From Saprospiraceae bacterium (GTDB taxonomy: Bacteria > Bacteroidota > Bacteroidia > Chitinophagales > Saprospiraceae): a stretch of 34,465 bases of DNA. The stretch lies in the NCBI GenBank assembly GCA_026989035.1, contig JALSKB010000008.1, positions 1 through 34,465 of the forward strand, given 5' to 3'. Below the pieces are notes generated by a model, which was not told the DNA's origin, made no database searches, and saw only the letters and a program-made list of their open reading frames with translations. Made by a program: the position numbers and the translations under genes. Shown here in pieces: positions 1,301 to 32,115 of the stretch; position 1 is the first letter of the stretch; every line of letters begins with the position of its first letter.

Positions 1301-1313
1301 TTTGCCGAAAGGC
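1301..1313 (+). repeat. Dispersed 13-mer TTTGCCGAAAGGC, copy 1 (intergenic)
   Basis: The only exact copy outside a gene, in the 240-bp gap between the secreted protein and tRNA-Arg. The core GCC-GAAA-GGC could fold into a 3-bp stem with a GAAA loop. The exact copies in the window are at 1301, 7353, 10019, 15474 and 30595 (+) and at 4461, 9211, 19244, 25417, 30403 and 31674 (-). The base before the 13-mer is A in 7 of the 11. Confidence 0.85.
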
Positions 1314-1395
1314 TTCTGCTTTTTTGACGCTATGAAACGGATGATGGTCACCGGGATGGTGCCTGCAAGGCGTGTATTAACGAAACATTTAGAGG

Positions 1396-1470
1396 TGGTG
1401 ATCCCGCCAGGAATCGAACCTGGATCTTAGGTTCCGGAGACCTACGTACTATCCATTGTACTACGGGACC
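1396..1470 (-). tRNA. tRNA-Arg(CCG), CCA encoded
   Basis: On the minus strand the acceptor arms GGTCCCG and CGGGATC pair with one G-U. The anticodon stem TAGGT/ACCTA closes the loop CTCCGGA, so the anticodon is CCG (reads CGG). The T arm is CAGG-TTCGATT-CCTG. The discriminator A and CCA are encoded at 1399-1396. It lies just after a terminator-like hairpin that follows tRNA-Lys. Confidence 0.95.
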
Positions 1471-1485
1471 TCTGGGAAAGTTTTT

Positions 1486-1524
1486 CCAAAAAAGCCTTAC
1501 GCAGCAAAAGTTGCGTAAGGCTTT
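1486..1524 (-). terminator. Rho-independent terminator after tRNA-Lys
   Basis: Perfect 13-bp inverted repeat, AAAGCCTTACGCA (1491-1503) and TGCGTAAGGCTTT (1512-1524), with an 8-nt loop. On the minus strand it is followed by a T tract, which is what an intrinsic terminator needs. It is 12 nt after tRNA-Lys and 20 nt before the 5' end of tRNA-Arg(CCG), leaving almost no room for a separate promoter for that tRNA. Confidence 0.8.
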
Positions 1525-1536
1525 GTTCTTTTTGGG

Positions 1537-1609
1537 TGATCCGGCCGGGGCTCGAACCCGGGACCCTTTGATTAAAAGTCAAATGCTCTACCGACTGAGC
1601 TACCGGATC
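1537..1609 (-). tRNA. tRNA-Lys(UUU), CCA not encoded
   Basis: Minus strand. The acceptor arms GATCCGG and CCGGATC pair fully. The anticodon stem TTTGA/TCAAA closes the loop CTTTTAA, so the anticodon is TTT (UUU). The T arm is CCGGG-TTCGAGC-CCCGG. After the discriminator A the DNA reads CCC rather than CCA, so CCA would be added after transcription. Confidence 0.95.
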
Positions 1610-1665
1610 TTCATCAAAAAGGGAGGATTTCCCACTCTTGAACGGCCCTTTTTTCAAAGGCTCCG

Positions 1666-1673: not shown

Positions 1674-1724
1674 TAAACTTTTCCCAAGACAAAAAAGTTT
1701 TTGAGGTGTTTTTTTATTTTGAGT

Positions 1725-3206
1725 TCAATTTAACTTGGCAAAGAGGGCTACGCCTTCTCTGCGGGCATCTGCTGCGGCTATAAAGCGATTGTTTTCTATG
1801 GCTACGGCATTGACTCCACCGAAATAGAGGGATTTTTTAGACCAGGGGCGGAGGTTTACTTCGGGGAAGTCATCGGGATGTACCATTTCGAAACCCTTTT
1901 CCAGTTCGAAAAGGCCACGATGGAGATAGGTGCGAGCGGCGTTTACCGCTTTGACAAGGGGCGTAGGGTAGTCCAGCATAAAGTGGATGACCTGGGCGAT
2001 GGCGAAGGGGATTCGACCGGCTCCGGCGCTGCCCAGGGCGCTGTGTAATTTGCCGGAAGGCAGACAGACTAGAGTCGGACACATCATGGAAGGCAGGCGT
2101 TCGTCGTTTTGCCAGCTGTGCAGGCCTTCGGGCAAGAGGGCAGGTTCGCCCATCATGTTGTTGAGTTGGATATCGGTGTCGGGGATGAAGAGGCCGCAAC
2201 CTTCGCCATTGGAAGAGGTGAGGCTAATGGCCATGCCTTTGTGGTCGAGTATGCTGATGTGCGTGGTATTGCCCCAGAGTGAGGTGTTTTGTAGAGCTTG
2301 GTAGAGGGCCTGGCGGTCGTGTTTTAGCCGGCTGATGCCGCGAAGAGCTTCGAACAGCCAGCGGGCATGGGTGGGGCTGTGAGAAGGTTGGGGAGGGGGT
2401 GGCCGATGGTGCATGCGGTGGAGTAGCAGAGTTAGCAAGGGGCCTCCCATGTTGGGGGGTGGGAAAGTGGTGATGTTCAATCCGCGATGTTGCAAGTGCA
2501 GTGGGTGGCGTGTTCTGCTGCGGTAGCCGGCCATGTCTTGTGTCTTGATTTGCCCTCCATTTTCCTTTTGCAGCTGGACCAGCTTTTGTGCAGGTTCTCC
2601 CAAGTAAAAGAAATCGCGTCCTTCTCGGGCCAGATTGTCGAAGAAGTTGCACATTCGACTCATTCTGAGAGGCTGCTCCGGGCTTAAGATTTGTTTTTGT
2701 CGGTAAAACAAGCTCCGGCCCGTTTCGCTTTGCGATAGCATCTGGTCGAGCAGGCTGATGCAGTAGATTTGGAAAGGATTGAGTTTGACGCCTTCTCTGG
2801 CTAATTCGCAGGCCGGGCGCACCAGCTCCTGCATGGGCAGGCTGGCGTAGCGGTGATGCAGGGTGAAGAGGCCGTCTATGAAACCGGGTACGGCCGTGGT
2901 GCCGGCTCCAATGTAGAAGGTTTCCGTGGTGTCGCCGAAATGGATGTCCAAAGGGCGGATGTCCACTTCTTGCCAGGCTCGCTTTTCCCGGGGTGTTTGC
3001 ACGAAGAAGTCGAGAAAAAACTGTTTTCCATTGGGCAGGTGAATGGCGGCAAATCCTCCACCGCCGGCGGAAGTCATGAGGGGTTCTGCCACCCAGGAGG
3101 CGAAGGCTGCGGCAATGGCTGCATCAGCTGCATTGCCACCTTGGAGCAGCATTTCTTCGGCTGCGCGCGCTGTGGCTTCGTGTCCGGCGGCAATGGCGTA
3201 CTTCAT
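1725..3206 (-). CDS. Gamma-glutamyltransferase-like Ntn hydrolase
   Basis: 493 aa. It matches the GGT family along its length: AAGHEATARAAE and GGNAADAA at the N-terminus, SAGGGGF near 46-52, PPPNMGG near 249-255, the TTH nucleophile motif at 314-316, LNNMMGE at 348-354, PSMMCPTLV and the GSAGAGRIP loop. Family members cleave themselves before the catalytic Thr; here T314 would give large and small subunits of about 313 and 180 residues, a normal split. Two oddities: there is no signal peptide, although classical GGTs are periplasmic, and where E. coli GGT has DFREMAP (the Arg holds the glutamyl carboxylate) this protein has DFFVQTP near 66-72. The true substrate may therefore not be a gamma-glutamyl compound. 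A His/Pro-rich stretch at 263-280 is unusual. It begins 45 nt after the DUF4403 gene and is probably co-transcribed with it. Confidence 0.88.
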   Translation of the reverse strand: MKYAIAAGHEATARAAEEMLLQGGNAADAAIAAAFASWVAEPLMTSAGGGGFAAIHLPNGKQFFLDFFVQTPREKRAWQEVDIRPLDIHFGDTTETFYIGAGTTAVPGFIDGLFTLHHRYASLPMQELVRPACELAREGVKLNPFQIYCISLLDQMLSQSETGRSLFYRQKQILSPEQPLRMSRMCNFFDNLAREGRDFFYLGEPAQKLVQLQKENGGQIKTQDMAGYRSRTRHPLHLQHRGLNITTFPPPNMGGPLLTLLLHRMHHRPPPPQPSHSPTHARWLFEALRGISRLKHDRQALYQALQNTSLWGNTTHISILDHKGMAISLTSSNGEGCGLFIPDTDIQLNNMMGEPALLPEGLHSWQNDERLPSMMCPTLVCLPSGKLHSALGSAGAGRIPFAIAQVIHFMLDYPTPLVKAVNAARTYLHRGLFELEKGFEMVHPDDFPEVNLRPWSKKSLYFGGVNAVAIENNRFIAAADARREGVALFAKLN

Positions 3207-3251: not shown

Positions 3252-4616
3252 CTATTGCTTGTCGGCTTTATCGGACAAAAAAACTTCCATTTGGCCGCGC
3301 ATGTCGATCCACAATCGAATGCCCTGGGTCGTGATGTCGGCACTTTTGATTTGGAGGTAGGGCAATTGGCCTTTGGCGACAAAGCCCTGTCCCAGGTCCA
3401 TTTGATCGAATTCTTCCTGTAGGGAAGACTTAAAGTAGTTTAGGTAGTAGTCCATGTAGTATTCGATGCTTTTTCGGATTTGCTTTTTGATGGGGCCTTT
3501 GAGCAGCCAGCCTGTGCCTTTGAGCAGGAGGTTTCGGGTTTCGAGTTTGTAATCGAGCTTTTCGAAGGTGATTTGGGTGGAATCGGGGGTGATTTCGGGT
3601 TTGCCGGTGAGTTGGATTTTACCTTCGTAGCTACCGCTCAGATCGAGCTCGACCAGTAGTTTGTTGCCTTGTCCGCTGAGATAGACGCTGTCCACTGTAA
3701 TTTGTTTGCGCCCTTCTTTGTAGGTATAGCCTTGTAAGTTTTCATTGGCCATGCTTTGGGCTTCTTCGAAGGGGATGTCTGTGCGGATGAGGAGTTTGAA
3801 TCCTCGTTCGGCGGGGCTGTAGGAAAAGGGAGGCAGGCTTGTGGTGTTGTGGGTTTCCGGGGGTTCACCGAGGAAAACGCGGGGTTTGGCTTGCAGCAGA
3901 AAAGCCGTATGCAGGGTGTCGTCGATCATTTCTATGGGGCTGAGCTGTAGTTTTTGCGGTTGTAAGAGCAGCCAGGAGTGATATTCCTCGGAGAGCAGGA
4001 TGGGCTGTTGCATACTTTGCCAGATGCTGTCCACCATAGCGGGCAGGTTTACGGAGGCTTCGATTTGTTGGTCTATGGCCTGGCAGAGTTCTTCTTTGCT
4101 GCGTTTGAGCACCATGTTGGCGATGCCTTGGACCGGCATGTTGAGTACGCCCATTTTTGCCCGGGGTTTTTCCACCCATTCGTGTTTGAGGATGCTGGTT
4201 TGAGTGTGTAACTTCCACTTTCGTGAAATGTCGTATTCCGTAGCGAAGTAGAGGGTCAATTTGCCTGTGGTTTCCACGTCGGCCAGCATGTACTCCTGTC
4301 GTATTTCCAGTTCCAGCGGCACTTTGTACAGCAGTCGGTTGCCCTCCAGGTCAATGACGACATCTTCGGTGCGCGTGGCTTTCATGTAGTAGCCCTCTTC
4401 GGGTAGGTCTTCTTCGTAAACGACTTGCCCCATTTGCTCGTTGAGCATTTTTTCTACGGCGCCTTTCGGCAAATGAATGGGCAGGCTCAGTTGGGAGCTT
4501 TCGCTTTCAAATCCTGTCAGATTTTCGCGTTGGACAAATGGCATGAGGCTGTTTTGGGCCAAGCTGCGGTGCAAAAAACAGCAGCAAATGAGCAGAAAGA
4601 GGGGTGTTTTACACAT
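3252..4616 (-). CDS. DUF4403 family exported protein
   Basis: 454 aa. The frame is open to 4712, but the ATG at 4614-4616 starts straight into a signal peptide (MCKTPLFLLICCCFLHRSLAQ) and sits 25 nt after a good -7 box, so it is preferred. The mature protein shows the DUF4403 pattern: SLPIHLPKGAVEKMLNEQ near the start, repeated amphipathic beta stretches, and a helical C-terminal part (KKQIRKSIEYYMDYYLNYF). DUF4403 proteins are envelope proteins of unknown function, thought to resemble lipid-binding tubular folds; the role here is unknown. It leads a probable operon with the GGT-like gene. A copy of the 13-mer repeat lies inside (4461-4473) and encodes LPKG. Confidence 0.85.
   Translation of the reverse strand: MCKTPLFLLICCCFLHRSLAQNSLMPFVQRENLTGFESESSQLSLPIHLPKGAVEKMLNEQMGQVVYEEDLPEEGYYMKATRTEDVVIDLEGNRLLYKVPLELEIRQEYMLADVETTGKLTLYFATEYDISRKWKLHTQTSILKHEWVEKPRAKMGVLNMPVQGIANMVLKRSKEELCQAIDQQIEASVNLPAMVDSIWQSMQQPILLSEEYHSWLLLQPQKLQLSPIEMIDDTLHTAFLLQAKPRVFLGEPPETHNTTSLPPFSYSPAERGFKLLIRTDIPFEEAQSMANENLQGYTYKEGRKQITVDSVYLSGQGNKLLVELDLSGSYEGKIQLTGKPEITPDSTQITFEKLDYKLETRNLLLKGTGWLLKGPIKKQIRKSIEYYMDYYLNYFKSSLQEEFDQMDLGQGFVAKGQLPYLQIKSADITTQGIRLWIDMRGQMEVFLSDKADKQ
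4461..4473 (-). repeat. Dispersed 13-mer, copy in DUF4403 gene
   Basis: Exact copy; the coding strand reads TTTGCCGAAAGGC in the register that gives Leu-Pro-Lys-Gly. Confidence 0.85.
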
Positions 4617-6914: not shown

Positions 6915-7426
6915 GGAGTGTTGATGTAGTGTTCTTCGGCGATATACTTCATTTCTTTGATGAGTTGGGCCACGTCTTTATAGCCGGGAGAAATGGTGAT
7001 GCGGGCCAGGTTTTCGTCCAAATAGACCAGAGAAGGAAAAGAGAGGCGTCCGTCGAGTAGAGCGGCGGCCAGTTCGTGGTATCCCCGGCGACCATTGGGC
7101 ACCCATTTAAATACTTCTCCCCGGAAATGCAGTTCTTCTTTTTGTTCTGCATTGAGTTTTACAGCATAGAAGTGCTTTGCGATGTACGCTTGTACTTCGG
7201 GATTGCTGAAGGTGTTTTCGTCCATGCGTTTGCACCAGCCGCACCAGTTGGTATAGACATCTATCAGGAGTTTTTTGGGTTTTTTCTTTTGAGCTTTAAG
7301 GGCTTCTTCCCAGCTCATCCACTGCAAGGTATTTTTAGTGGCCTGGTTTTTGTTTGCCGAAAGGCAGGAAAGAGAGTATATGGTAATGGCTATGCCCAGT
7401 AGGAGAATAAGTGGGTAGCTTTTCAT
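6887..7426 (-). CDS. Exported thioredoxin-like protein (WCGWC)
   Basis: 179 aa from the ATG at 7424-7426, chosen over the longer frame (to 7489) because it starts with a membrane-directing segment MKSYPLILLLG and a possible lipid-attachment Cys at residue 21 (SLSC, a loose lipobox). The thioredoxin-fold active site is WCGWCK (C62, C65), preceded by KKLLIDVYTNW and followed by the cis-Pro region SFPSLVYLD. It resembles the thioredoxin_7/DUF255 group, which reduce disulfides or hold folding clients in the periplasm. A copy of the 13-mer repeat lies in the signal region (7353-7365). It precedes and overlaps the M23 peptidase gene. Confidence 0.85.
   Translation of the reverse strand: MKSYPLILLLGIAITIYSLSCLSANKNQATKNTLQWMSWEEALKAQKKKPKKLLIDVYTNWCGWCKRMDENTFSNPEVQAYIAKHFYAVKLNAEQKEELHFRGEVFKWVPNGRRGYHELAAALLDGRLSFPSLVYLDENLARITISPGYKDVAQLIKEMKYIAEEHYINTPWEEFESKK
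7353..7365 (+). repeat. Dispersed 13-mer, copy in thioredoxin-like gene
   Basis: Exact copy on the strand opposite to the gene; the coding strand reads GCCTTTCGGCAAA and gives Leu-Ser-Ala-Asn. Confidence 0.85.
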
Positions 7427-8681: not shown

Positions 8682-9254
8682 ATGAAACGGATGAAGGTAG
8701 TCGTAGGAGTAGGTGGTGCCAGCGGGTCTCTTTATGCATCGGTTTTGTTGGAGCGTTTGCGTGCTTTGGAAAAGGAGGTGTCTGTAGGGCTTGTGCTTTC
8801 GCCAAATGCCCGTTTGAATTGGGAAATTGAGATGGGCAGGGTTTTTGACGAAAGTCAATATCCCTTTGATTTTTATGCTGCGGATGACTTTATGGCGCCT
8901 TTTGCCTCCGGTTCAGCGGCTTACGAGGCTATGATTGTTTGCCCTTGCTCCATGGGTTTGTTGGGTAGGATTGCACAGGGCATTTCTACGGATTTGATTT
9001 CACGAGCCGCTGATGTGATGCTGAAAGAACAAAGGCGTCTGGTCTTGGTGCCCCGAGAGACGCCTTATAGCCTCATTCACTTGGAAAATATGCGCCGCAT
9101 CGCATTGGCCGGTGGCATTATTTGTCCGGCCTCGCCCTCTTTTTATTCCCGTCCGAAGACCTTTGAGCAATTGGCCGCTACCGTGGTGGACAGGGTCTTG
9201 CAATTGATAGGCCTTTCGGCAAAAGACATGTACCGCTGGGGGGAGAAATTTTGA
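8682..9254 (+). CDS. ubiX: UbiX-type flavin prenyltransferase
   Basis: 190 aa. The enzyme joins a dimethylallyl group to FMN to make the prenylated flavin used by UbiD-type decarboxylases. Diagnostic segments: VGVGGASGSLYA near the N-terminus (phosphate and flavin binding), IVCPCSMGLLGRIAQGIS in the middle, then RAADVMLKEQRRLVLVPRETP and CPASPSFYSRP. The length is standard for the family. No ubiD lies in the window. It is divergent from the HTH regulator and 149 nt before tpiA on the same strand. A 13-mer repeat copy lies near its 3' end. Confidence 0.95.
   Translation: MKRMKVVVGVGGASGSLYASVLLERLRALEKEVSVGLVLSPNARLNWEIEMGRVFDESQYPFDFYAADDFMAPFASGSAAYEAMIVCPCSMGLLGRIAQGISTDLISRAADVMLKEQRRLVLVPRETPYSLIHLENMRRIALAGGIICPASPSFYSRPKTFEQLAATVVDRVLQLIGLSAKDMYRWGEKF
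9211..9223 (-). repeat. Dispersed 13-mer, copy in ubiX
   Basis: Exact copy; the coding strand reads GCCTTTCGGCAAA and gives Leu-Ser-Ala-Lys. Confidence 0.85.
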
Positions 9255-9403: not shown

Positions 9404-10168
9404 ATGCAAAACCAACGCAAACAAATCGTTGCCGGCAACTGGAAAATGCACAAGACTTTTGAAGAAGGCTTGGAATTAGCCGGCCAGATAGTCTCCGGTT
9501 TTGAGGGAGATAAGGGAGTGGAAGTGGTCTTAGCCCCGCCATTTATTCATCAAAAAGCCGTGGGGGAATTGCTCGCCGGAGTGGAAGGTATGTCTTTGGC
9601 GGGGCAGAACTGCCATCAAGAGGCTTTCGGCGCTTATACCGGCGAGGTGTCTGCCGAGATGTTGCGCTCCGTGGGTGCCCGGTACGTGATTTTGGGGCAC
9701 TCGGAGCGCAGGCAATACTTTGGTGAAGACGACGAGCTGCTGCGCGCTAAGGTCGATCGGGCTTTGGAGGCCGGTTTGGATATCATCTTTTGCTGCGGAG
9801 AAAGTTTGGAAGTGAGAGAGGGTGGAGATTTTTTGTCTTTCGTTACAGGGCAGGTCGAGGCAGCTCTTTTCCATCTGGAAGAATCCTCCATGGCTCGTGT
9901 GGTTTTGGCTTATGAACCGATTTGGGCTATTGGAACCGGCCGGACGGCTTCCCCGGAACAGGCGCAAGAGATGCATGCTCATTTGCGCAAGAAGCTGGGA
10001 GAACGCTATGGGGTAGCATTTGCCGAAAGGCAGACCATCCTTTATGGAGGAAGTTGTAAGCCGACAAATGCTAAAGAACTGTTTTCTCAGCCTGATGTGG
10101 ACGGAGGTCTCATTGGCGGGGCATCTTTGGTGGCGGAAGATTTTTTGAGCATTTGTCGCTCTTTTTGA
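9404..10168 (+). CDS. tpiA: Triosephosphate isomerase
   Basis: 254 aa, normal for the family. It interconverts dihydroxyacetone phosphate and glyceraldehyde 3-phosphate in glycolysis. The catalytic residues are in place: N12 and K14 (GNWKMHK), H99 (ILGHSERR), E171 (AYEPIWAIGTG), the flexible loop after it, and the phosphate-binding GLIGGASL near the C-terminus. Start at the ATG 9404 directly before QNQRKQIVAGNW. It stands alone between ubiX and the S24 repressor. A 13-mer copy is read in-frame as Phe-Ala-Glu-Arg. Confidence 0.98.
   Translation: MQNQRKQIVAGNWKMHKTFEEGLELAGQIVSGFEGDKGVEVVLAPPFIHQKAVGELLAGVEGMSLAGQNCHQEAFGAYTGEVSAEMLRSVGARYVILGHSERRQYFGEDDELLRAKVDRALEAGLDIIFCCGESLEVREGGDFLSFVTGQVEAALFHLEESSMARVVLAYEPIWAIGTGRTASPEQAQEMHAHLRKKLGERYGVAFAERQTILYGGSCKPTNAKELFSQPDVDGGLIGGASLVAEDFLSICRSF
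10019..10031 (+). repeat. Dispersed 13-mer, copy in tpiA
   Basis: Exact copy in the coding orientation, giving Phe-Ala-Glu-Arg; followed by CA, which would extend the stem to TGCC/GGCA. Confidence 0.85.
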
Positions 10169-10365: not shown

Positions 10366-11178
10366 ATGGGCTTCAGAGTTCTGGATAGCACGAAGCGTTT
10401 CCTGCATTGTTTGGGCGAATTGCTGAACAATGGCGGGGTGAAATCGCAAACCGAGTTTGCGGAGCTTTTGGGCATTCAGGCTCAGGCTATTAGCGAGATT
10501 AAGCGTGGTAGGAGAAATGTTACTTTGGGGATGCTGGAAAGGGCTGTGGAAGTTTTTCGATTTAATCCTTGTTTTTTGTTTTGGGGAGAGGGTGCACCTT
10601 TTTTGCAACCGGAGGAAATGGCGGGCTTGCGCATTTTGTCGGTTGTCATCAATGAAGATGGGGAGGAGCGCATTTTACACGTACCTGTGCCGGCTCAGGC
10701 AGGTTATGCCAGTGGCATGTTGGAAACGGAATATATTCGCGAGCTGCCTACTTTCACTTTGCCCGACGAAACGTTTAAAATGGGTACACACCGCTGTTTT
10801 GATGTAGCTGGCGAGAGCATGGAGCCTACCTTGTATAGAGGAGATCGAGTGGTGTGTAGTTTTCTGGAGCCGGATGCCTGGAAAGAAGGCATCAAAGACG
10901 GCGATATCTATGTGATTGTAACCTATAGAGATGTCTTGGTCAAGCGAGTAGTTAATCTCATTACTCACAATGGCTGTTTGGAATTGCGCTCCGACAATGC
11001 CGTTTATAAGCCGATCACTTTGCCCGTGGTTGAGGTTAAGGAGTTGTGGCGTGTTCGCTTAAAGATGAGTAGTGTGTTGAGTCAGCAAATTTCGGAGCTG
11101 GAGCGCATTGAGCAGCAATTGCAAGAGTTAAAGCATCTAATTTTGCGCAAGCAAGGCGATGGAAATAGGCCGGTTTGA
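10366..11178 (+). CDS. S24/LexA-like repressor with HTH domain
   Basis: 270 aa. N-terminal XRE-type HTH at about 26-62 (SQTEFAELLGIQAQAISEIKRG), a linker, then a peptidase S24 (LexA/CI-like) domain. The catalytic Ser is S151 in GESMEPTL and the Lys is K193 in DVLVKRVV. An Ala-Gly pair at 112-113 (PAQAGYA) is in the right place for self-cleavage. The C-terminal tail (about 230-265) is a coiled-coil-like SQQISELERIEQQLQEL segment, unusual for LexA and possibly an extra oligomerisation element. Such proteins are common in Bacteroidota as stress-responsive repressors, both chromosomal and phage-derived; no phage genes surround this one. Confidence 0.88.
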   Translation: MGFRVLDSTKRFLHCLGELLNNGGVKSQTEFAELLGIQAQAISEIKRGRRNVTLGMLERAVEVFRFNPCFLFWGEGAPFLQPEEMAGLRILSVVINEDGEERILHVPVPAQAGYASGMLETEYIRELPTFTLPDETFKMGTHRCFDVAGESMEPTLYRGDRVVCSFLEPDAWKEGIKDGDIYVIVTYRDVLVKRVVNLITHNGCLELRSDNAVYKPITLPVVEVKELWRVRLKMSSVLSQQISELERIEQQLQELKHLILRKQGDGNRPV

Positions 11179-22594: not shown

Positions 22595-24973
22595 TTACCT
22601 GCCGCTGCGGTCCAGGAAATTGCTTCCGGCCTGTTGTTTGGCCATGACGAGTACGTCCTGGATGTTTACGTGCTCGGGTTGGGTTGTGAGCAGGTAAATC
22701 AATTCGGCCACGTCTTCGGCTTGCAGGGGCATGAAGTCTTCGTAGATCTTGGCCTTTTCTTCATCTCCGTCGAAACGCACTTTGGCGAATTCCGTTTCTA
22801 CATGCCCGGGGCAGACCTGCCCGACTTTGATGCCGTGTTTGTAGAGGTCGATGCGCATGCCTTTGGTCAGGGCATCGACGGCAAATTTGGTGGCACAATA
22901 GACGTTGCCATTGGGGTAAACCTCTTTTCCGGCCGTGGAGCCTACATTGATGATATGCCCGTGGCCCCGTTCGACCATGCCCGGGCTGACCAGGCGGGTG
23001 ATGTACAGCAGGCCTTTGATGTTGGTGTCTATCATGGTGTCCCAATCTTCAATGCGCCCCTGGTGAATGGGGTTTAAGCCCCGGGCCAGGCCGGCATTGT
23101 TGACCAAGACGGAGATGTTTTGCCATTCGCCTTCCAGTTGTTCATAGGCTTTTTTGCAAGCTTCATACTGACGCAGGTCAAATGCCAGGCTGATGGCTTC
23201 TATGCCGTAATGGTCTTCCAGTTCTTTTTGCAACAATTTGAGGCGGTCTTTGCGGCGTGCACAGAGGATAAGTCGATAGCCGGCTCGGGCAAAGCGCCGT
23301 GCCGTTTCCCGGCCAATACCGGAGCTGGCTCCGGTGATAAGGGCGATGGGGCTGACTTCCGCCTTTTCCTTTTCGGGGCTTTCGCCAAATGCTTTTTCCG
23401 GTTTGTCGTTTTGTTCTTTCGGGTCGGGTTTGCGGGTTTTTTCCTCCTGTTGCAAAAAGCTTTTGTCGTTTTTTTCGTTGCGCAGTTCGGGTTGTAGGCG
23501 AGAGGCTATGAGGTAATGAGCCTGGGCCTTGTCTTTTTTGCCCTTTTTGAGGTAAATACGTGCCAGCTGAAAATGAGCTGCGCCGTGTTGTCGGTCGCGG
23601 TGCAGTACTTCTTTCAGGGCTTTGATGATTTTTTTCGTTTTGGCTCCTTGGGCCAGAAGGTGTTGGGCATAGAGGTACTGGAGTTCGGCGTCTTCGGGCT
23701 TGTATTTGGCTGCTTGTTTGTAGGTGATTCCCGCTTTTTCTTTTTCAGGGAAGAAGTTGGCATATAGGAGTGCGAGGCGATGCCAGGCTTCGGCTTGTTC
23801 GGGTTCTTGTCTTACGACAATTTGGTAGTGTTTCAGAGCCTTTCGCCTTTCGTCCAGGTATTCGAGCAATTCGGCCAGGAGGAAATGGATATCGGTGCGT
23901 TGCGGTGCTGCTTTAACGGCTTTTTTCAGTTGTGCGCAGGCTGTTTGGGCATCTTTGCGGACAGAGATGAGCAAGAGGGCATATTGATAGCGTAGTTCTG
24001 CAGATTCAGGTTGCTGTTGAATGCCCTGTTCAAGAACTTGCAAGGCTTCTTCCATGGCATCGCGTTCGCGCAATTCGCGGGCTTTTGCCAGGAGTTCTTC
24101 TACGCTGTATTCTTTCTGTTTGCTTTCTTTTGTTTCGGGTGTTTCTGTGCTGCTTTCGGTATCTTGTCCTTCTTTAGCGGAATGTTCCTTTTCTTCGTTT
24201 TCGTTCTCGGTTTTGGGGCTGTGTTCGCTCTCTTCTTCCGGCTCAGAATCGACTTCTCCTTGTAAGACTGCCTGGAGGCCGGGTATTTCCTCGGGGCTTC
24301 CCGGCATTTCTTCCGCTTCATCGGTTTGCTTCACAGGGCCTTTGGGATCTTCGTTTTGCGTTGTCTCGGTATCGTGGCTTTGCAGTTTTTTGGCGAAAGC
24401 CAGGTGCTCTTCCTCTGTTTGGTGAAGTGCGTTAAAGAGTTTCTCGTAGCTGTTTTGGCGAAGTTCTTCGGGCTTATATATTTCTTGCTTTCTCAAGAAA
24501 TTGAAGAAGCTTCCCATGTTGGTGGATATGTTGCGGACGCTTTTGAGTTGTTCTTCTATTTGTTCTTTTTTATCAGGTGGAGCTTCTCGCTTTTGCTTGC
24601 GCAATTCCAGGTAGCGCTCCTGCCAGTAATTGATGTAATGGATAAAATCTTTGGTTCGGCTTATTTCTGTCTCTTTGGTCTTGATTTGGCCGTCTTCGGT
24701 TTGGTAGATTCCCGGAGTAACGACTGTGGTGAGCCGATTGGATTGGGCAAAACGGGAAAGCAAGTCGGGGGCATGCATCATGCAATTCAGCTCGTATAAG
24801 AAATTGCTGCTGATGAGGACGAGCAAATGGGAGGTGTCGGGGACATCTTCCGGGCAGTGATCGGAAAGGAGTACCCGAAAAGGAGCAAGTCGAAGTTCTT
24901 CGGCTATATGTTGAGCTTGTTGTTTTTGAGCCGGATGATGAAGTATGATTAAAGTTTGATCGTTGTTTTTCAT
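22595..24973 (-). CDS. TIR-like / TPR / short-chain dehydrogenase fusion protein
   Basis: 792 aa in one frame, no signal peptide. Domains in order: a TIR-like alpha/beta domain (about 5-90) with TLIILHHPAQ and a LVLISSNFLYEL strand-helix; a helical extension (about 100-185, KDFIHYINYWQERYLELRKQK) as seen on TIR domains of Saprospiria; an acidic low-complexity linker (about 195-288); about six TPR repeats (289-498); a charged linker; and a complete classical SDR (542-792). In the SDR, TGASSGIG is at 547-554, NNAG at 625-628, and the catalytic S679, Y692, K696 (YCATK). This is a YdfG-like NADP-binding type. In the TIR part the WCxxE-type position reads NCMMHA, so the catalytic Glu of NADase TIRs is not visible. 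It follows the redoxin gene by 45 nt on the same strand. Confidence 0.8.
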   Translation of the reverse strand: MKNNDQTLIILHHPAQKQQAQHIAEELRLAPFRVLLSDHCPEDVPDTSHLLVLISSNFLYELNCMMHAPDLLSRFAQSNRLTTVVTPGIYQTEDGQIKTKETEISRTKDFIHYINYWQERYLELRKQKREAPPDKKEQIEEQLKSVRNISTNMGSFFNFLRKQEIYKPEELRQNSYEKLFNALHQTEEEHLAFAKKLQSHDTETTQNEDPKGPVKQTDEAEEMPGSPEEIPGLQAVLQGEVDSEPEEESEHSPKTENENEEKEHSAKEGQDTESSTETPETKESKQKEYSVEELLAKARELRERDAMEEALQVLEQGIQQQPESAELRYQYALLLISVRKDAQTACAQLKKAVKAAPQRTDIHFLLAELLEYLDERRKALKHYQIVVRQEPEQAEAWHRLALLYANFFPEKEKAGITYKQAAKYKPEDAELQYLYAQHLLAQGAKTKKIIKALKEVLHRDRQHGAAHFQLARIYLKKGKKDKAQAHYLIASRLQPELRNEKNDKSFLQQEEKTRKPDPKEQNDKPEKAFGESPEKEKAEVSPIALITGASSGIGRETARRFARAGYRLILCARRKDRLKLLQKELEDHYGIEAISLAFDLRQYEACKKAYEQLEGEWQNISVLVNNAGLARGLNPIHQGRIEDWDTMIDTNIKGLLYITRLVSPGMVERGHGHIINVGSTAGKEVYPNGNVYCATKFAVDALTKGMRIDLYKHGIKVGQVCPGHVETEFAKVRFDGDEEKAKIYEDFMPLQAEDVAELIYLLTTQPEHVNIQDVLVMAKQQAGSNFLDRSGR

Positions 24974-25018: not shown

Positions 25019-26332
25019 TTACTGGCCCAACTCTTGTACATACCTGTCGAATTCTCGGATAAACTCCTGGTATTCTGCTGTTGCAGGACCGTAAAAACCC
25101 GTGTGTATGCGCAAAACGCGGTTGTCTTTGTCCAGGAAAATGAGGGTGGGGTAGGAGACGATTTTTTGCAGCATGGGTAGGGCTTGTGCAGCAGGCGGGC
25201 CGGGTGGGCCGGCATACAAGACGGGGTAAGGCACGTTCATTTTTTCTTTGAAGGTGCGGATGAGCCGAAAAGCCTTGTTTGTATCTTGGCCTTTTTCAAA
25301 AGACAGCCCAATGATGGCCGGTTTAAAATCGGGATGTTCTTGGAGATATTCGACCAGAAATCGGGTCTCGTCTCTGCAGTTGGGGCACCAAGTCCCCATG
25401 ATTTGAATGATTTTGGGCCTTTCGGCAAATTGAGGGTCGTTTAGGCTGAGGGTATCTCCTTGAACGGGATCGAAAAAAGCGAAGTTGAATTGTTGATAGC
25501 CTGGCTTGAGGAAAGTCAGGCTGTCGGGATGTCTCAACTGAGCCCGGGGGTCGCGCCGTGCTATCCAATTGGTTTGGTAGTGTATGCCTGATTGGAAACT
25601 ACCGCTGAGGCTGCTGTCCGGCATGATTTTGGCTTTAAAGAGGAAAGCATGGCTACCGTCGAAGCAGGATAAATACATTTTGTCAGCTTGTACGGTGCCT
25701 TCCAGGAAGCGAAAATCTCCGGTTTCCGTGGCAAAGGTGCCTTTGAGGTGGTTGCCGTTTTGTTGGAATTCGCCGATGGCGGCAAATTCGTCTTCCGTTC
25801 CCGGGGCGAAGGTCGTTGCCCAACGCCCGCTGAGGTTTGCCAGGGGTTTTTTGCGCACAGTGGTGAAGCGATGGTTTTGGCCGAATTCCGCTTCAAAGGG
25901 TATGCTGTATTTCCCACGGGAAGGAACGTACCATTGGCCCTGTATGATGCCCTCTGCAAAACGGGCGAGGATGTAGGTGTCGTAAATGGGGAAGTCTATG
26001 CGTATGCTGTCGTGGTTTGTCGCTTTATCGTGCCAGGTTTGTATGTGATCCACCCGAATGCGTTCATCGCCATTGATGATTTCAATGTAAAAGGTGCTGT
26101 CTCCGGTATAAGTCAAATCAAAGAGGAAAGGCAAGACCCCTTCCGTTACGTCTTCTATGTTGGGCACGGGTTGTTCTTGCAGAGCTTCTTTGGAAGCCGC
26201 CGGTTGCTTTTGTTCCAGATAGAGCAAGCCGCGCCAGCGCCCGGGAGGTAGGAGATTGTAAGAGTTGATCTCTTCAATGCAGTTGGAGAAGAGGGTAGCG
26301 ATCAGCAGGAGTAGGAGGAAATTTTTAGACAT
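25019..26332 (-). CDS. TlpA-like redoxin lipoprotein
   Basis: 437 aa from the ATG 26330-26332. The signal MSKNFLLLLLIATLFSNC ends in a likely lipidated C18. The middle (about 40-270) is beta-rich, including a SGRWATTFAP stretch like the barrel-type domains fused to Bacteroidota redoxins. The C-terminal thioredoxin-fold domain has GTWCPNC (C316, C319) with the cis-Pro P395 (SYPTLIFLD). It should reduce disulfides, or act in cytochrome c maturation, at the periplasmic face. A 13-mer repeat copy lies inside, read Phe-Ala-Glu-Arg. The gene is upstream of the TIR-TPR-SDR gene. Confidence 0.88.
   Translation of the reverse strand: MSKNFLLLLLIATLFSNCIEEINSYNLLPPGRWRGLLYLEQKQPAASKEALQEQPVPNIEDVTEGVLPFLFDLTYTGDSTFYIEIINGDERIRVDHIQTWHDKATNHDSIRIDFPIYDTYILARFAEGIIQGQWYVPSRGKYSIPFEAEFGQNHRFTTVRKKPLANLSGRWATTFAPGTEDEFAAIGEFQQNGNHLKGTFATETGDFRFLEGTVQADKMYLSCFDGSHAFLFKAKIMPDSSLSGSFQSGIHYQTNWIARRDPRAQLRHPDSLTFLKPGYQQFNFAFFDPVQGDTLSLNDPQFAERPKIIQIMGTWCPNCRDETRFLVEYLQEHPDFKPAIIGLSFEKGQDTNKAFRLIRTFKEKMNVPYPVLYAGPPGPPAAQALPMLQKIVSYPTLIFLDKDNRVLRIHTGFYGPATAEYQEFIREFDRYVQELGQ
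25417..25429 (-). repeat. Dispersed 13-mer, copy in redoxin gene
   Basis: Exact copy in the coding orientation, giving Phe-Ala-Glu-Arg. Confidence 0.85.
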
Positions 26333-26454: not shown

Positions 26455-27750
26455 TTAGAGGTTGTCGTCCCACTCTTTGGGTTTAGGGTCTCCGAGTTTC
26501 CCCATACTTTGGGCCACGAGCATAGATACGGTGGCATCTCCGGTAACGTTGGCCATGGTTCGGCACATGTCCAGGGGCCTGTCCACGGCAAAGATGAGAG
26601 CCAGCCCGGCCTCAGGAATGCCGGCTTGCGCCAAAACGATGACGAGCATGACCATGCCTGCACCGGGTACGGCGGCAGAGCCTATGGAAGCCAGGGTTGC
26701 CGTGAGGATGATACCGAGTTGGGCGCTGAGGCTGAGTTCCATGTTGAAAGCCTGGGCAATGAAGACAGCCGCTATGGCTTGGTACATGCTGGTGCCGTCC
26801 ATGTTGATGGTAGCACCTATGGGCAACACAAAGCTGGCCACCTCTTCCTCCACGCCCAGGTGCTCCTCCACGCGCTCCATGGTTACGGGTAGGGTGGCAG
26901 CACTGGAGCTGGTGGAAAAGGCCAACAATTGAGCGGGAGCAATACCGTTGAAAAAGAACTTATATCCGCGTTTGGTGAAAAAGCGCACCAGGCTGGGATA
27001 AAAGAAAAAAATGAGCATACTCAAGCCGATTAAGACGCTGAGTGAATATCCGATTAAGGCTTTGAAAAGATCCCAGCCCGGAGATTCCGCCACCAGAGCA
27101 GCCAAGAGGGCAAAGACGCCTATAGGAGCACTCAACATGATGAGGTCAATCAGTTTGAGAATGACCTCATTGACTCCGTCAAAAAATACTTTGACCGGTT
27201 GAGATTTATCGTCAGGCACCAAGATCAAACCCACACCGAAGAAAATGGCAAAAAAGATGACCTGCAGCATTTTGCCGTTGTTGGTCATGGCCTTGAAAAT
27301 GTTGTCGGGCACCAAATCCACTAAGGGCTGCAGGGGGCCCTGGGCTTTGGTTTCTTCGGCAGCTTTAGCTTTGCTCTCGGCTTTTTCCGCATAATTGAGC
27401 AGCAACTCTTTACGCGTTTCTTCCTTGAGGAGCTTGCCGGGTTGAATAATGTTGACAACCAACAAGCCCAGACTGATAGCTACTATCGTTGTGATGAGGT
27501 ATAGCATTATGGTGCGGCCTCCCATGGCAGATAAGCTCGACAGATCTTTTAAGTCGGATACCCCTTTAATCAGTGATGCCAAAATAAGTGGAATGGCAAT
27601 CAACTTCAGCATGTTGATGAAAATGGTGCCAAAGGGCTTGATCCAATCTACAATGAAATTTTTCCAGCCCATCTGGGAGCCTAACAGGCCAAAGAATACC
27701 CCCAGCAACATACCCAGGAGAATCTGCCAATGCAAAGGAATTTTTTTCAT
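26455..27750 (-). CDS. Dicarboxylate/amino acid:cation symporter (DAACS family)
   Basis: 431 aa from the ATG 27748-27750; the frame runs upstream to 27969 through the promoter and that part is rejected. It starts MKKIPLHWQILLGMLLG. Substrate and ion sites are present: SSSAATLP at 281-288 (re-entrant hairpin 1), NMDGT at 316-320 in transmembrane segment 7, and DRPLDMCRT (390-398) with NVTGD (401-405) in segment 8. These transporters bring in glutamate, aspartate or C4-dicarboxylates with H+ or Na+. An Ala/Lys/Glu-rich insert at about 106-136 (ETRKELLLNYAEKAE) is a hydrophilic loop longer than in GltP. No partner gene. Confidence 0.93.
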   Translation of the reverse strand: MKKIPLHWQILLGMLLGVFFGLLGSQMGWKNFIVDWIKPFGTIFINMLKLIAIPLILASLIKGVSDLKDLSSLSAMGGRTIMLYLITTIVAISLGLLVVNIIQPGKLLKEETRKELLLNYAEKAESKAKAAEETKAQGPLQPLVDLVPDNIFKAMTNNGKMLQVIFFAIFFGVGLILVPDDKSQPVKVFFDGVNEVILKLIDLIMLSAPIGVFALLAALVAESPGWDLFKALIGYSLSVLIGLSMLIFFFYPSLVRFFTKRGYKFFFNGIAPAQLLAFSTSSSAATLPVTMERVEEHLGVEEEVASFVLPIGATINMDGTSMYQAIAAVFIAQAFNMELSLSAQLGIILTATLASIGSAAVPGAGMVMLVIVLAQAGIPEAGLALIFAVDRPLDMCRTMANVTGDATVSMLVAQSMGKLGDPKPKEWDDNL

Positions 27751-29475: not shown

Positions 29476-29487
29476 TGCTTTTCCCTG

Positions 29488-29559
29488 TAGCCCCGCCAGG
29501 ACTCGAACCTGGATCTAGAGTTTAGGAAACTCCTATTCTATCCCTTGAACTACGGGGCC
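29488..29559 (-). tRNA. tRNA-Arg(CCU), CCA not encoded
   Basis: Minus strand. Acceptor arms GGCCCCG and CGGGGCT pair with a G-U at the first position. The anticodon stem GGAGT/ACTCT closes the loop TTCCTAA, so the anticodon is CCT (reads AGG). D stem GTTC/GAAT and T arm CCAGG-TTCGAGT-CCTGG are intact. The DNA after the discriminator A reads CAG. Confidence 0.95.
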
Positions 29560-29580: not shown

Positions 29581-29650
29581 AAAAATAACGCTCATTGTAG
29601 AGCCAATGCGGCTTGTATGATGAATAAAAATTTGGCAGCTCTAAAAAGCG

Positions 29651-29658
29651 TATCTTTA
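29651..29658 (+). promoter_or_regulatory. Possible -7 box TATCTTTA for the MmcQ/YjbR gene
   Basis: One mismatch from TAnnTTTG and only 4 nt before the ATG at 29663, so the transcript would be leaderless or nearly so. A TTTG lies 16 nt upstream, shorter than usual. Confidence 0.3.
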
Positions 29659-29662
29659 GGCC

Positions 29663-30019
29663 ATGGATATTCAAATGCTCCACGAATTTTGCCTCGGCTT
29701 ACGCGGCACTACTACATCTTTCCCCTTCAACAAAACCACCTTGGTCTTTAAAGTGGCTGGTAAGATGTACGCTTTGGCCTCCTTGGATAGCATCCCCTTG
29801 CAAGTCAATTTGAAGTGCGAGCCCGGCTATGCTCTGTCTTTGCGTGAACAGTGGCCGGAAGACGTTTTTCCCGGCTATCACATGAACAAAAAGCATTGGA
29901 ATACCGTCGTTTTTGAGGGTGCTCTACCGGACACCTTGCTTCGCGAATTGGTGCTGCATTCCTACGAGCGGGTGGTGCGGGGCTTGCCCCGAAAACGCAG
30001 AATAGAGCTTGGAGTATAA
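29663..30019 (+). CDS. MmcQ/YjbR family DNA-binding-like protein
   Basis: 118 aa. Family pattern: CLGLRGTTTSFPFNKTTLVFKVAGKMYAL at 10-38, a NLKCEPGYALSLRE block, PGYHMNKKHWNTVVF and a C-terminal HSYERVVRGLPRKRR. MmcQ/YjbR proteins are small CyaY-like-fold proteins with a suggested DNA-binding role; function is not established. It is followed 110 nt later by the FAD oxidoreductase on the same strand. Confidence 0.9.
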   Translation: MDIQMLHEFCLGLRGTTTSFPFNKTTLVFKVAGKMYALASLDSIPLQVNLKCEPGYALSLREQWPEDVFPGYHMNKKHWNTVVFEGALPDTLLRELVLHSYERVVRGLPRKRRIELGV

Positions 30020-30129
30020 TCCTGTTTTCAGCAAAGTGCTTAAGCGTTCTCTTTTTTCGAGCTTTTATTTTGGCCTAATCGAATTTAAAGCCGAAGTGCT
30101 CGAGATAAACAGCTTGAAAGTTCCGGTAA

Positions 30130-31224
30130 ATGAAAGTCGATTGTATTATCGTAGGGGGTGGATTAGCCGGCACACTCCTGGCGTGGAAGTTGGCCCGGCG
30201 AGCTGCCAAGGTGCTGGTCTTGGATCCCGAAAATTCGCACTCTTGTTCGAGGCTGGCTGCAGGTATCATCAACCCCGTTACGGGCAAGCGCTTGGTCAAG
30301 TCCTGGCACTTCGATCAACTTTTTGACTTTGCCAAAGAGACCTATCGGGAGATGGAATCTGAATGGGGGGTGCGCCTGCTCTATACCCAACGCATTTTTA
30401 GGGCCTTTCGGCAAATGGAACTCACCAATCAGTGGAACTTTCGCCTGGGTGATCCGAGTTATGCCTCCTTGCTGGAACCTCCTCAGCAGTCCCCTCCGGA
30501 GCCAGAACTGTTTCGCCAGGCCTTGGCCTATGGCTGTATCAAAAAAGCCGCGCGCCTGGATGTTCCACAACTGCTGGCTTCCGTTAGGAAGGCCTTTGCC
30601 GAAAGGCAGCAATTTAAGGGCAGTGCTTTTCTTCGAGAGACTTTTCGACCTGAGGCTTTGGTGTTAAGCTCAGAGGGTGTGATCTATGGAGAATATCAGG
30701 CTTCCAAGCTGGTCTTTTGCGAGGGCTGGAAGTTGAAAGATAACCCTTGGTTCGGATATCTGCCTTTGAATCCTGCCAAAGGCCATGTCTTGCATTTGCG
30801 TTTGGCACAGGAGCTTTATGCCAAGCGTTATATCTATAAAGATGCGCTCTACTTCGTGGCCTTGGACGAACAAACAGTCTGGTGTGGTTCCGATTATTTG
30901 TGGGATTTCCGGGACGATAAGCCGGAATCGGAGCCTTTGTCTCTGTTGAAAGACAAAGCCGAACAGATTTTGAAAAAGCCCTGCCAAGTTTCGGGACGTT
31001 TTGCTGCGGTACGTCCTACGGTTAGAGATCGCCGCCCCTTGTTGGGGCAACATCCCGAATATCCACAGCTCTTTGTTTTTAACGGCCTGGGTACCAAAGG
31101 CTCTTCCCTGGGGCCTTGGTGTGCCGCACAAATGGCCGAGCTGTTGCTGGAGGGGAAAGCCGTAGATGAGGAGCTGGATATTCGCCGATTTGAAGGGCGA
31201 GAACAGCCCCTTGAAGCCAAGTAA
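30130..31224 (+). CDS. DadA-like FAD-dependent oxidoreductase
   Basis: 364 aa. The dinucleotide-binding motif is GGGLAG at 9-14 with the acidic end VLVLDPE near 33-39. Next come SRLAAGIINPVTGKRLV, a central substrate domain, then GRFAAVRPTVRDRRPLLG and the C-terminal FNGLGTKGSSLGPWCA loop that closes on FAD. The family (glycine oxidase / D-amino acid dehydrogenase / tRNA mnm5s2U-type) oxidises amines; the substrate here cannot be set. Two copies of the 13-mer repeat lie inside, only 192 nt apart. It ends 24 nt before the LigD-type polymerase gene. Confidence 0.87.
   Translation: MKVDCIIVGGGLAGTLLAWKLARRAAKVLVLDPENSHSCSRLAAGIINPVTGKRLVKSWHFDQLFDFAKETYREMESEWGVRLLYTQRIFRAFRQMELTNQWNFRLGDPSYASLLEPPQQSPPEPELFRQALAYGCIKKAARLDVPQLLASVRKAFAERQQFKGSAFLRETFRPEALVLSSEGVIYGEYQASKLVFCEGWKLKDNPWFGYLPLNPAKGHVLHLRLAQELYAKRYIYKDALYFVALDEQTVWCGSDYLWDFRDDKPESEPLSLLKDKAEQILKKPCQVSGRFAAVRPTVRDRRPLLGQHPEYPQLFVFNGLGTKGSSLGPWCAAQMAELLLEGKAVDEELDIRRFEGREQPLEAK
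30403..30415 (-). repeat. Dispersed 13-mer, first copy in the FAD oxidoreductase gene
   Basis: Exact copy; the coding strand reads GCCTTTCGGCAAA and gives Ala-Phe-Arg-Gln. Confidence 0.85.
30595..30607 (+). repeat. Dispersed 13-mer, second copy in the FAD oxidoreductase gene
   Basis: Exact copy in the coding orientation, giving Phe-Ala-Glu-Arg. It is preceded by GGCC, so GCCTTTGCCGAAAGGC holds two GCC arms for one GGC. Confidence 0.85.
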
Positions 31225-31248
31225 AGACTTGAAAAAAACAGAGCTTTT

Positions 31249-32115
31249 ATGTCTGAGCTTACGAAAATGGTTAGGGGCAGAGCCTTGTCGGTTCATCATC
31301 CCGATCGCCTCTATTTTCCGGAGAGCGGTTGGACGAAGATGGATGTGATGAATTATTACGAAGCGGTTTGGCCTTATTTGCAGCCACATCTGCAAAAGCG
31401 ACCTGTAACTTGGCGGGTTTTTCCTCAAGGCATTCACGGCTTTTCTTTTTATCGGCGCGATGCAGGCAAAAACAGTCCGCCTTTGGCGCGCAGCTTTCCT
31501 TATCGGGAGCGCAGCAAGGAGAAGACCATTCGTTTACTCGTGGTGGAAGAATTGTACACTTTACTTTGGTTGGTTGCGCGGGGTGGGCTTGAGTATCACT
31601 TATGGGCTTGTACGATAGAGGATTTGGAGCATCCGGATTGGGCCGTTTTTGACTTGGATGTTTCGGAGGGTACGCCTTTCGGCAAATTGCTGGAAGTGAG
31701 TTTGTTGTTGAGGGAAGAGTTGGAAGGGCAAGGGCATCTCGTTTTGGCCAAAACTTTCGGAGGTACGGGCATGCACTTGTACGTACCTCTTTCGTCGAAA
31801 CGGCCTTTTGAGGAAGTTCGACTGTGGGTGAAAGGGCTCGCCGTGAAGTTGGCTGATAAGCGGCCTGATTTGATTCTCTCACCGGACTTGCAGAGAAAGA
31901 CGCATTGGGGGGATAAGGTCGCCATAGATTATGCCCAGAATGCCCGCGGAAAGAATACTGCGGCACCCTATACTTTACGTGCTCGTCCGGGGGCGCCTGT
32001 ATCTACCCCCCTGTCTTGGGAAGAGATCGAGCAAGGAGGATTTGTGCCCTCGGATTTCAATTTGAGCACTTTGCCTGAGAGGCTAAAAAAAGTTGGAGAT
32101 TTGTTTTTGGTTTAA
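31249..32115 (+). CDS. Stand-alone LigD-type polymerase domain (PrimPol)
   Basis: 288 aa, the size of the polymerase domain alone. Family markers: RLYFPESGWTKMDVMNYYEAV near 20-40, the metal-binding D135 and D137 (FDLDVSEG; most LigD proteins have DLDP), the KTFGGTGMHLYVPL motif with H176, D227 in VAIDYAQN, then RGKNTAAPYTLRARPGAPVSTPL. In NHEJ this domain adds nucleotides, including ribonucleotides, at broken ends next to a ligase and Ku; here neither a ligase domain nor Ku is in the window. The stop codon overlaps that of the convergent gene by three bases. A 13-mer copy lies at 31674-31686. Confidence 0.92.
   Translation: MSELTKMVRGRALSVHHPDRLYFPESGWTKMDVMNYYEAVWPYLQPHLQKRPVTWRVFPQGIHGFSFYRRDAGKNSPPLARSFPYRERSKEKTIRLLVVEELYTLLWLVARGGLEYHLWACTIEDLEHPDWAVFDLDVSEGTPFGKLLEVSLLLREELEGQGHLVLAKTFGGTGMHLYVPLSSKRPFEEVRLWVKGLAVKLADKRPDLILSPDLQRKTHWGDKVAIDYAQNARGKNTAAPYTLRARPGAPVSTPLSWEEIEQGGFVPSDFNLSTLPERLKKVGDLFLV
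31674..31686 (-). repeat. Dispersed 13-mer, copy in the LigD-type polymerase gene
   Basis: Exact copy; the coding strand gives Pro-Phe-Gly-Lys, right after the catalytic DLD motif. Confidence 0.85.

Follow-up and report, generated by a model that had tools for sequence, protein, structure and literature searches.

A genome-wide family of DNA mini-hairpin words with covarying arms in a Saprospiraceae bacterium

A 34,465-nucleotide stretch of DNA from a Saprospiraceae bacterium (assembly GCA_026989035.1, contig JALSKB010000008.1), referred to here as the window, contains repeated copies of a 13-base word, TTTGCCGAAAGGC. This word belongs to a genome-wide family of DNA mini-hairpin words with the form 5'-W-TTT-(1-3 arm bases)-C-GNAA-G-(complementary arm)-A-rich-3', present on both strands and in both genes and spacers. 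Selection seems to keep a tiny DNA hairpin and not one fixed sequence. The best explanation suggested by the genome comparisons, to which we would give a probability of roughly 40%, is that this is a self word resembling an uptake sequence and recognised as a hairpin in single-stranded DNA.

A previous examination of the letters of the window, termed the sequence-only reading, reported 11 exact copies of TTTGCCGAAAGGC on both strands, with ten of these copies being located in nine open reading frames (ORFs) and specifying five different peptides (LPKG, FAER, LSAK/N, AFRQ and PFGK), and also a ten-base core at 12923 and a one-mismatch copy at 2049. All of these features were detected in our analyses, and the copy positions were accurate except for one given as 15474, whose true position is 15464-15476. 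Allowing up to two mismatches to TTTGCCGAAAGGC, 19 matches were detected in the window as compared to a mean of 2.13, and a largest value of 8, in 100 dinucleotide shuffles. The suggestion that this was a highly iterated genomic word was borne out by the presence of 660 exact copies (326 forward and 334 reverse) in the 3.12-Mb source genome and of no copies of a reversed-word control. A genome count near to a Markov expectation had been named as evidence against such a word; in a 561-kb sample of the source genome, 138 copies were observed versus 0.26 expected with an order-4 Markov model.

The types of variants present in the source genome indicated which property of the word is maintained. 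In a 321-kb sample, variation was observed at loop base 8 of the 13-mer (A, 78 copies; G, 12; C, 8; T, 4), all other single mutants being absent except for one copy with a change at base 9. The sole double mutant with more than three copies was a swap of the middle pair, TTTGGCGAAAGCC, which was present in 42 copies. Analysis of 541 kb detected 134 exact copies of TTTGCCGAAAGGC and 63 copies of the compensatory swap TTTGGCGAAAGCC. The 36 single mutants of TTTGCCGAAAGGC outside base 8 totaled only 7 copies in these 541 kb versus 5.0 expected for a slightly larger set, while those of TTTGGCGAAAGCC exhibited a modest excess (23 versus 4.7 expected), with ten of the 23 having a change in the outermost base. 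The word of this genome can be written as W-TTT-G-S-C-GNAA-G-S'-C, where S pairs with S', and an A-rich stretch follows. The arms are mostly GCC/GGC or GGC/GCC, and many complementary arms are found in some other genera of the family. As the compensatory variant is frequent, single mutants are at background levels and many stems are used in other genera, arm pairing appears to be the feature that is kept. A passing remark in the sequence-only reading, that the core could fold as a tiny hairpin with a GAAA loop, was the key to this word. Four two-mismatch matches in the window, missed in that reading, were compensatory hairpin variants with the sequence TTTGGCGAAAGCC, and a total of 17 window sites belong to the class TTTG(C/G)CGNAAG(G/C)C with paired arms.

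Enrichment in other genomes was measured as the ratio of a stem-free pattern, TTTNNCGNAAG, to its reversed control. Samples of 11 enriched genomes were scanned with the pattern TTT-N(k)-C-GNAA-G-N(k), for which pairing was not required, and the numbers of paired arms were compared with those obtained in 2,000 shuffles of the 3' arms (G000 is the source genome, and the other G numbers are labels for genomes of the comparison set). For k = 2, pairing was above all of the shuffles in 10 of the 11 genomes, with paired arms at 294 of 380 sites in G000 (shuffle mean, 124), 47 of 62 in G344 (14), 28 of 50 in G349 (6), 24 of 27 in G155 (9), 20 of 31 in G273 (5), 46 of 124 in G117 (12), 25 of 58 in G343 (6), 15 of 21 in G363 (4), 17 of 48 in G298 (7.5) and 127 of 173, involving 15 different stems, in G489 (20). 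The value for G017 (6 of 12; shuffle mean, 2.3) was reached by 11 shuffles. When each distinct word was counted once, no shuffle reached the observed value in eight genomes, and the numbers of shuffles that did so in the other three were one (G155), 52 (G298) and 57 (G017). Two-base-pair stems were common in G117 (77 of 85 paired; shuffle mean, 33) and G343 (49 of 49; 24), weak in G000 (36 of 72, matched by 6 of the 2,000 shuffles) and not above the shuffles in G017, G363, G298 and G155. Four-base-pair stems were also used in G155. In three non-enriched relatives, paired arms were observed at 0 of 8 sites for k = 2 and 1 of 6 for k = 1. A slight signal was obtained with a set of named Bacteroidota loci (12 of 99 paired versus 5.9 expected, a value reached by 24 of 2,000 shuffles), which is not a pure negative control due to the presence of Saprospiraceae among these loci.

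The loop and the prefix were subject to strong restrictions. For k = 1 and k = 2 pooled, GNAA loops were dominant (933 of 1,343 paired), GNCA loops were slightly raised (62 of 230) and GNGA loops, which are good loops in RNA, were paired in 25 of 104 cases, approximately the share seen with unrelated loops. Pairing was also detected for TNTC loops (122 of 263), which we interpret as the same hairpins viewed from the reverse strand at sites with a T-rich flank. Among prefixes, TTT was dominant (649 of 986 paired), with TTG, TTC and ATT being slightly raised (62, 55 and 37 paired, respectively), partly due to longer-stem forms, and closing pairs other than C-G showed little enrichment. Relative to the genome as a whole, A was over-represented downstream of the hairpin in each of the 11 genomes. 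The base preceding TTT was an A or a T in 79 to 96% of sites in ten genomes and in 62% of the 16 sites in G017. In a set of 102 sites, the data hinted at a further A-rich hump one turn downstream; in 257 sites, this feature was weak.

Site orientation pointed to a function at the level of DNA. Sites were on the same strand as the gene in 69 cases and on the opposite strand in 61, a distribution without gene-strand bias, and were evenly spread along genes. At most 22 of 153 sites were intergenic, with noncoding DNA accounting for 15% of the genome; this number is an upper bound, as the simple gene finder missed two Pfam-supported genes (those with the sites at 9211 and 31674). An RNA element or transcription terminator, for which the GNRA-like loop might argue, was rejected because of this strand symmetry and of a downstream side that is A rich, not T rich. 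The absence of enrichment for GNGA loops and of any Rfam family matching the window sites at gathering scores also conflict with such a role, which we regard as extremely improbable. The predicted DNA folding energy was -3.6 kcal/mol for both stem types and only -0.2 and -1.8 kcal/mol for two single-arm breaks. A class of extraordinarily stable DNA mini-hairpins has been described, in the excerpted text of PMC4686876, with a sequence rule that requires a loop of the GNA or GNNA type together with two or more G-C pairs; these structures resist nucleases and protect 3' ends (PMC4686876; also PMC10527192). Sites with GCC/GGC or GGC/GCC arms and GNAA loops satisfy this rule as given there. The main words of the source genome share the C-G-closed GNNA loop and the two or more G-C pairs of the d(GCGAAGC) class, but that class is known from chemistry and aptamers, and genome-wide biological use is not described in the excerpts of PMC4686876.

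Conservation was assessed by comparing parts of the window, the stretch before 8600 not being in the query, with two genomes of the same genus. Six of the 17 sites were aligned without gaps, four were aligned only with gaps (2049 to G303; 23377, 30403 and 30595 to G375) and seven had no aligned relative, the last two groups being outside the following count. Four of the six gap-free sites (10019, 25417, 26623 and 32937) were perfect in both relatives, where surrounding identity was 70 to 80%, as compared to 3.4% of all 13-base stretches (1,657 of 48,116). The rarer loop base of site 26623, a C, was also kept in both relatives, and site 10019 was absent from the other genera compared. This contrast is not purely a property of the word, since protein constraint contributes in genes such as that for triosephosphate isomerase. 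The other two sites, 9211 and 31674, were not kept in the same genus and differed from the relatives by substitutions only. Insertion of a mobile unit was, therefore, unsupported at these two sites, the relatives lacking them without gaps. Sites missing from the window were also present in the relatives, at 30968 in both and at 30325 in G303.

The family set of the source genome, f1, is very probably the Saprospiraceae. In a sample of 248 genomes from the order, the exact word was iterated in f1 only, with no more than three copies being present elsewhere, and numbers of TTTGSCGNAAGSC ranged from 0 to 1631 copies per genome among 398 f1 genomes. The TTTNNCGNAAG ratio was 14 in G117 and G343, 12.7 in G344, 12 in G476 and G489, 11.5 in G405, 9.4 in G155, 8.6 in G298, 7.7 in G000 and G349, 7.3 in G363, 7.2 in G371, 6.9 in G303, 6.3 in G375, 5.4 in G381 and 5.0 in G017. 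Sister species without enrichment were found in the same genera. Thus, in genus g11, G117, G343, G405 and G476 were at 11 to 14 times the control versus 1.3 for G445; in g191, G489 was enriched but G509 (1.0) was not; and in g139, G260, G400 and G441 carry the word while G337 (0.7) does not. Enrichment is, hence, patchy within the Saprospiraceae and even within genera. By inspection of 395 genomes from across the phylum, ratios outside f1 were no higher than about 2.1. Several members of another family, f37 (e.g., G637, G918, G625 and G953), had ratios of 1.3 to 2.1, which may reflect composition or a faint relative of the word.

The arrangement of sites was non-random with respect to strand. 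In the source genome, adjacent sites were on opposite strands in 139 cases versus 82 on the same strand (p = 1.5e-4), and same-strand spacing was more even than under strand shuffling (coefficient of variation [CV], 0.79 versus 0.95 with a standard deviation of 0.05). A broader site definition gave an alternation of 171 versus 114 and a CV of 0.85 versus 0.94. Alternation was also detected in eight other genomes when pooled (276 versus 218; p = 0.010). Strand alternation and within-strand evenness suggest, tentatively, that the two strands are provided with sites independently of each other. No bias with respect to local GC skew, which is only a proxy for the leading strand, was observed (123 versus 105), and the distribution of sites between contigs was not overdispersed (chi-square of 12.1 with 19 degrees of freedom).

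Candidate machinery was surveyed in 38 enriched genomes (about 1.8 to 14 times control, such that the weakest overlap the f37 level of up to 2.1) and 42 non-enriched genomes. The comEC gene was detected in 36 of the 38 and 39 of the 42 (75 of 80), and the helix-hairpin-helix domain HHH_3 in 36 and 42, respectively (78 of 80); being nearly universal, both were rejected as discriminating genes. In the source genome, comEC adjoins a gene with repeated helix-hairpin-helix domains (ComEA-like; G000:C52:49697-51616), and relatives of both were present in many of the neighbourhoods fetched. Apart from these two genes, the comEC neighbourhoods of G000, G344, G117 and G445 had neighbours in common only with a genome of the same genus or with a single other genome. 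For the pilus ATPase, PF00437, some match was found in 73 of the 80 genomes and nine passed the cut-off, but a near full-length protein was detected in only two, G478 (enriched) and G527 (non-enriched), with a fragment in G371; pilus-based uptake is, therefore, unlikely for this group. The Y1 transposase domain, PF01797, was present in 55 of the 80 genomes, including one in G000, but was not found in the strongly enriched G344, G017, G155, G303 and G375, draft genomes in which genes can be hidden, and was rejected on this basis as a necessary reader. None of comEC, HHH_3, PF01797 and PF00437 separates enriched from non-enriched genomes. Transformation of Riemerella anatipestifer is reported, in the excerpted text of PMC8459023, to require ComEC, DprA, ComF, RecA and four proteins of unknown function, one being a predicted outer-membrane protein, and the corresponding parts of PMC8459023 and PMC7965970 state that no pilus homologues were detected in the transformable R. 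anatipestifer and R. columbina. The latter species prefers its own DNA, and frequent words such as AAAAATAAAA are listed, with their role being left open by the authors (PMC7965970, in part). These reports indicate that a pilus-free, DNA-choosing competence exists in the phylum.

We infer a reading of the hairpin in single strands, a dedicated reader and a role in DNA transfer. According to this proposal, the word would be read in single-stranded DNA as TTT beside a very stable C-GNAA-G hairpin by a putative factor distributed patchily among the Saprospiraceae. The likeliest setting would be transfer of DNA between cells, by natural transformation without a type IV pilus, during which hairpin-bearing strands may be preferred or may survive nucleases. 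Such a preference would drive each strand to retain one site every few kilobases. Recognition would be by shape and a few fixed bases, resembling a DNA uptake sequence in its working and not one duplex string. The sequence-only reading had offered an uptake sequence, a nucleoid or segregation protein site, or a repair or methylation motif as candidates, all conceived as fixed sequences; in that form they fit the variant data poorly, while an uptake-like role persists as the best guess in this other form. The odds are about even for the wider claim that this is a new kind of genomic signal, namely, a self-recognition word set by DNA secondary structure, read single-stranded when strands are processed or DNA is transferred independently of pili. 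Such a word would have reached a density of about one site per 1 to 4 kb through substitutions, and its stems would have been recoded individually from genus to genus, with TTT and the C-GNAA-G turn being retained. No description of such a hairpin word was found among the listed titles and opening abstract lines of open-licence papers on Bacteroidota uptake sequences or on hairpin words or competence in Saprospiraceae, which is weak evidence of novelty. The iterated words known to us (uptake sequences, Chi and HIP1) are fixed strings, whereas in this case the object of selection appears to be a fold. The coordinated change of paired bases across thousands of sites is classic evidence of structure, seen here in coding DNA regardless of transcription. 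If correct, this proposal would provide genomic evidence that cells read a DNA hairpin at thousands of loci, and would offer a starting point for understanding the possible choice of DNA by Bacteroidota that lack type IV pili; the dialects and the within-genus gains and losses would give a route to the reader.

Several observations weigh against this uptake-like explanation. Known uptake receptors meet duplex DNA; a hairpin read would require single strands at the receptor step. As comEC and HHH_3 are near-universal in both groups of genomes, they do not explain the patchiness, and neither was found in the strongly enriched draft genome G375, nor HHH_3 in G303. A GACA loop is also predicted at -3.6 kcal/mol, so that modelled DNA folding does not account for the choice of loop. 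The two genomes with clear within-strand evenness were G000 and G155; the signal was borderline in G489 and G344, and G349, G117, G343, G298 and G273 gave no evidence of it. Uptake, Chi and HIP1 words are accompanied by an excess of one-mismatch forms, as in Actinobacillus pleuropneumoniae with 947 versus 86 expected beside 438 perfect copies (PMC1939737, in part). No such excess was observed for TTTGCCGAAAGGC, and that for TTTGGCGAAAGCC was smaller than for known uptake words; a hairpin read could explain this difference, as one arm change breaks a pair. The uptake words of Pasteurellaceae and Neisseriae favour one reading-frame orientation, and Pasteurellaceae sites lean toward gene ends, according to the excerpted text of PMC2346458; neither an orientation bias nor a gene-end lean was seen for the sites of the source genome.

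The main rival is a Chi-like site, with a helicase-nuclease or exonuclease acting on one strand of broken DNA being stopped or switched by the hairpin such that each strand needs sites. A density of about one site per 4 kb per strand, the strand alternation and the within-strand evenness of the source genome all fit this explanation, as does the nuclease resistance ascribed to the mini-hairpin class in the partial text cited above. Chi sites (RecBCD/AddAB) have a similar per-strand density and strand-wise arrangement. Known Chi words, however, are 5 to 8 bases long and without hairpins, in contrast to the ~13-base hairpin word observed here; there is no GC-skew bias, and the patchiness within genus g11 is ill-suited to a core repair function. 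The Escherichia coli Chi site also has a one-mismatch excess, and uptake sequences are likewise without strand bias (both from the excerpted text of PMC1939737). Given the within-genus patchiness, the graded copy numbers and the absence of strand bias, transfer was preferred over Chi-like repair, which we consider unlikely but worth retaining as a competitor. Less probable again is a self-mark recognised by a defence system whose targets are single-stranded or broken DNA without a hairpin; the patchy distribution, near absence of single mutants and per-strand arrangement would be expected, but a lethal self-test would require marking of the genome to precede arrival of the system, whereas the observed counts form a gradient from tens to thousands. 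A duplex-binding nucleoid, segregation or replication protein, acting as a dimer on an inverted repeat, would account for the inverted-repeat arms, genome-wide spread and within-strand evenness. Base readout, however, does not predict exchanged complementary arm pairs, such as the 15 stems of G489, nor the one-sided TTT and GNAA, and the within-genus patchiness is a further difficulty, so that we rate this slightly below the self-mark. Methylation or ordinary duplex-binding sites are disfavoured in general since neither predicts preserved arm pairing.

Two other processes could generate hairpins but were judged highly unlikely. A mutational by-product, in which quasi-palindrome correction favours stable mini-hairpins, would produce hairpins with perfect arms and a loop from a very stable class, but TTT is fixed though it need not pair, stem choice is lineage specific, sites are conserved in the same genus and the effect is missing from most related genomes. 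Marginally less credible is the idea that the sites were left by a Y1 (HUH) hairpin transposase or a RAYT system, as in REP elements. Y1/HUH enzymes do read a hairpin and an adjacent short 5' sequence, and REP/RAYT and IS200/IS605 terminal hairpins share the short 5' tag and DNA hairpin with the present word. These hairpins are, however, mainly intergenic and associated with a Y1 transposase, while the sites described here are mostly inside genes, PF01797 was not found in the five strongly enriched drafts (which can hide the gene) and the 9211 and 31674 sites, inside genes, are replaced in relatives by gap-free substitution. Among known iterated words, the uptake sequences of Neisseriaceae and Pasteurellaceae are similar in being highly over-represented on both strands with genus dialects, and some have an A/T-rich flank. 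They differ in having one fixed core with a near-miss tail, in contrast to covarying arms, interchangeable stems and a main word without one-mismatch excess; moreover, the present word shows no reading-frame orientation bias and occurs in genomes nearly all of which lack the pilus ATPase. The HIP1 palindrome of cyanobacteria is also a very frequent word, with perfect copies outnumbering one-mismatch forms in Synechocystis (5648 versus 1830; PMC1939737, in part), but is one fixed loopless palindrome, while here the loop and prefix are fixed and the stems vary.

The 17 window sites are distributed as follows. Exact TTTGCCGAAAGGC copies on the plus strand are located at 1301..1313, outside the listed genes and near two tRNA genes, and in genes for a thioredoxin-like protein (7353..7365), triosephosphate isomerase (10019..10031), a PKD/Por-secretion-tail protein (15464..15476) and a FAD oxidoreductase (30595..30607). 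The last gene also contains a copy on the opposite, minus strand (30403..30415), and other minus-strand copies are in genes for a DUF4403 protein (4461..4473), a flavoprotein (9211..9223), an E1-E2 ATPase (19244..19256), an AhpC-TSA-like protein (25417..25429) and a LigD prim-pol protein (31674..31686). The compensatory stem variant TTTGGCGAAAGCC is present in the E1-E2 ATPase gene (19379..19391, plus), twice in a TPR/short-chain dehydrogenase gene (23377..23389, minus, and 24389..24401, plus) and in an ORF without a Pfam match (32937..32949, plus). The remaining two sites are TTTGCCGGAAGGC, with a GGAA loop, in a gamma-glutamyltranspeptidase-like gene (2049..2061, plus) and TTTGGCGCAAGCC in a dicarboxylate symporter gene (26623..26635, minus). 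Rare paired-arm stem variants that may be due to chance at these positions were observed at 8843..8857 (TTTTGACGAAAGTCA, plus), 33443..33455 (TTTCGCGAAAGCG, plus) and 4216..4228 (TTTCACGAAAGTG, minus), and a TGC/GCA stem variant, TTTTGCGCAAGCA, at 11141..11153 (plus), with 12 TG-stem copies being detected in a 558-kb sample.

A number of other features were noted. A LigD primase-polymerase domain is the sole Pfam domain of the gene at 31249-32115, which contains a hairpin site. The tRNA genes of the window, at 1396-1609 and 29487-29559, are tRNA-Arg(ccg), tRNA-Lys(ttt) and tRNA-Arg(cct), all on the minus strand. Apparent tandem-repeat words of 7 to 8 bases (CCTCAAA, CTCCTAAA and AAACTTT types) were among the most over-represented 12-mers in the samples of G363, G117 and G344. 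A second over-represented 8-mer family, GGTTTGGG/GTTTGGGA, apparently unrelated to the hairpin, was present in the 321-kb sample of the source genome with 87 and 71 copies versus 19.8 and 15.5 expected, respectively.

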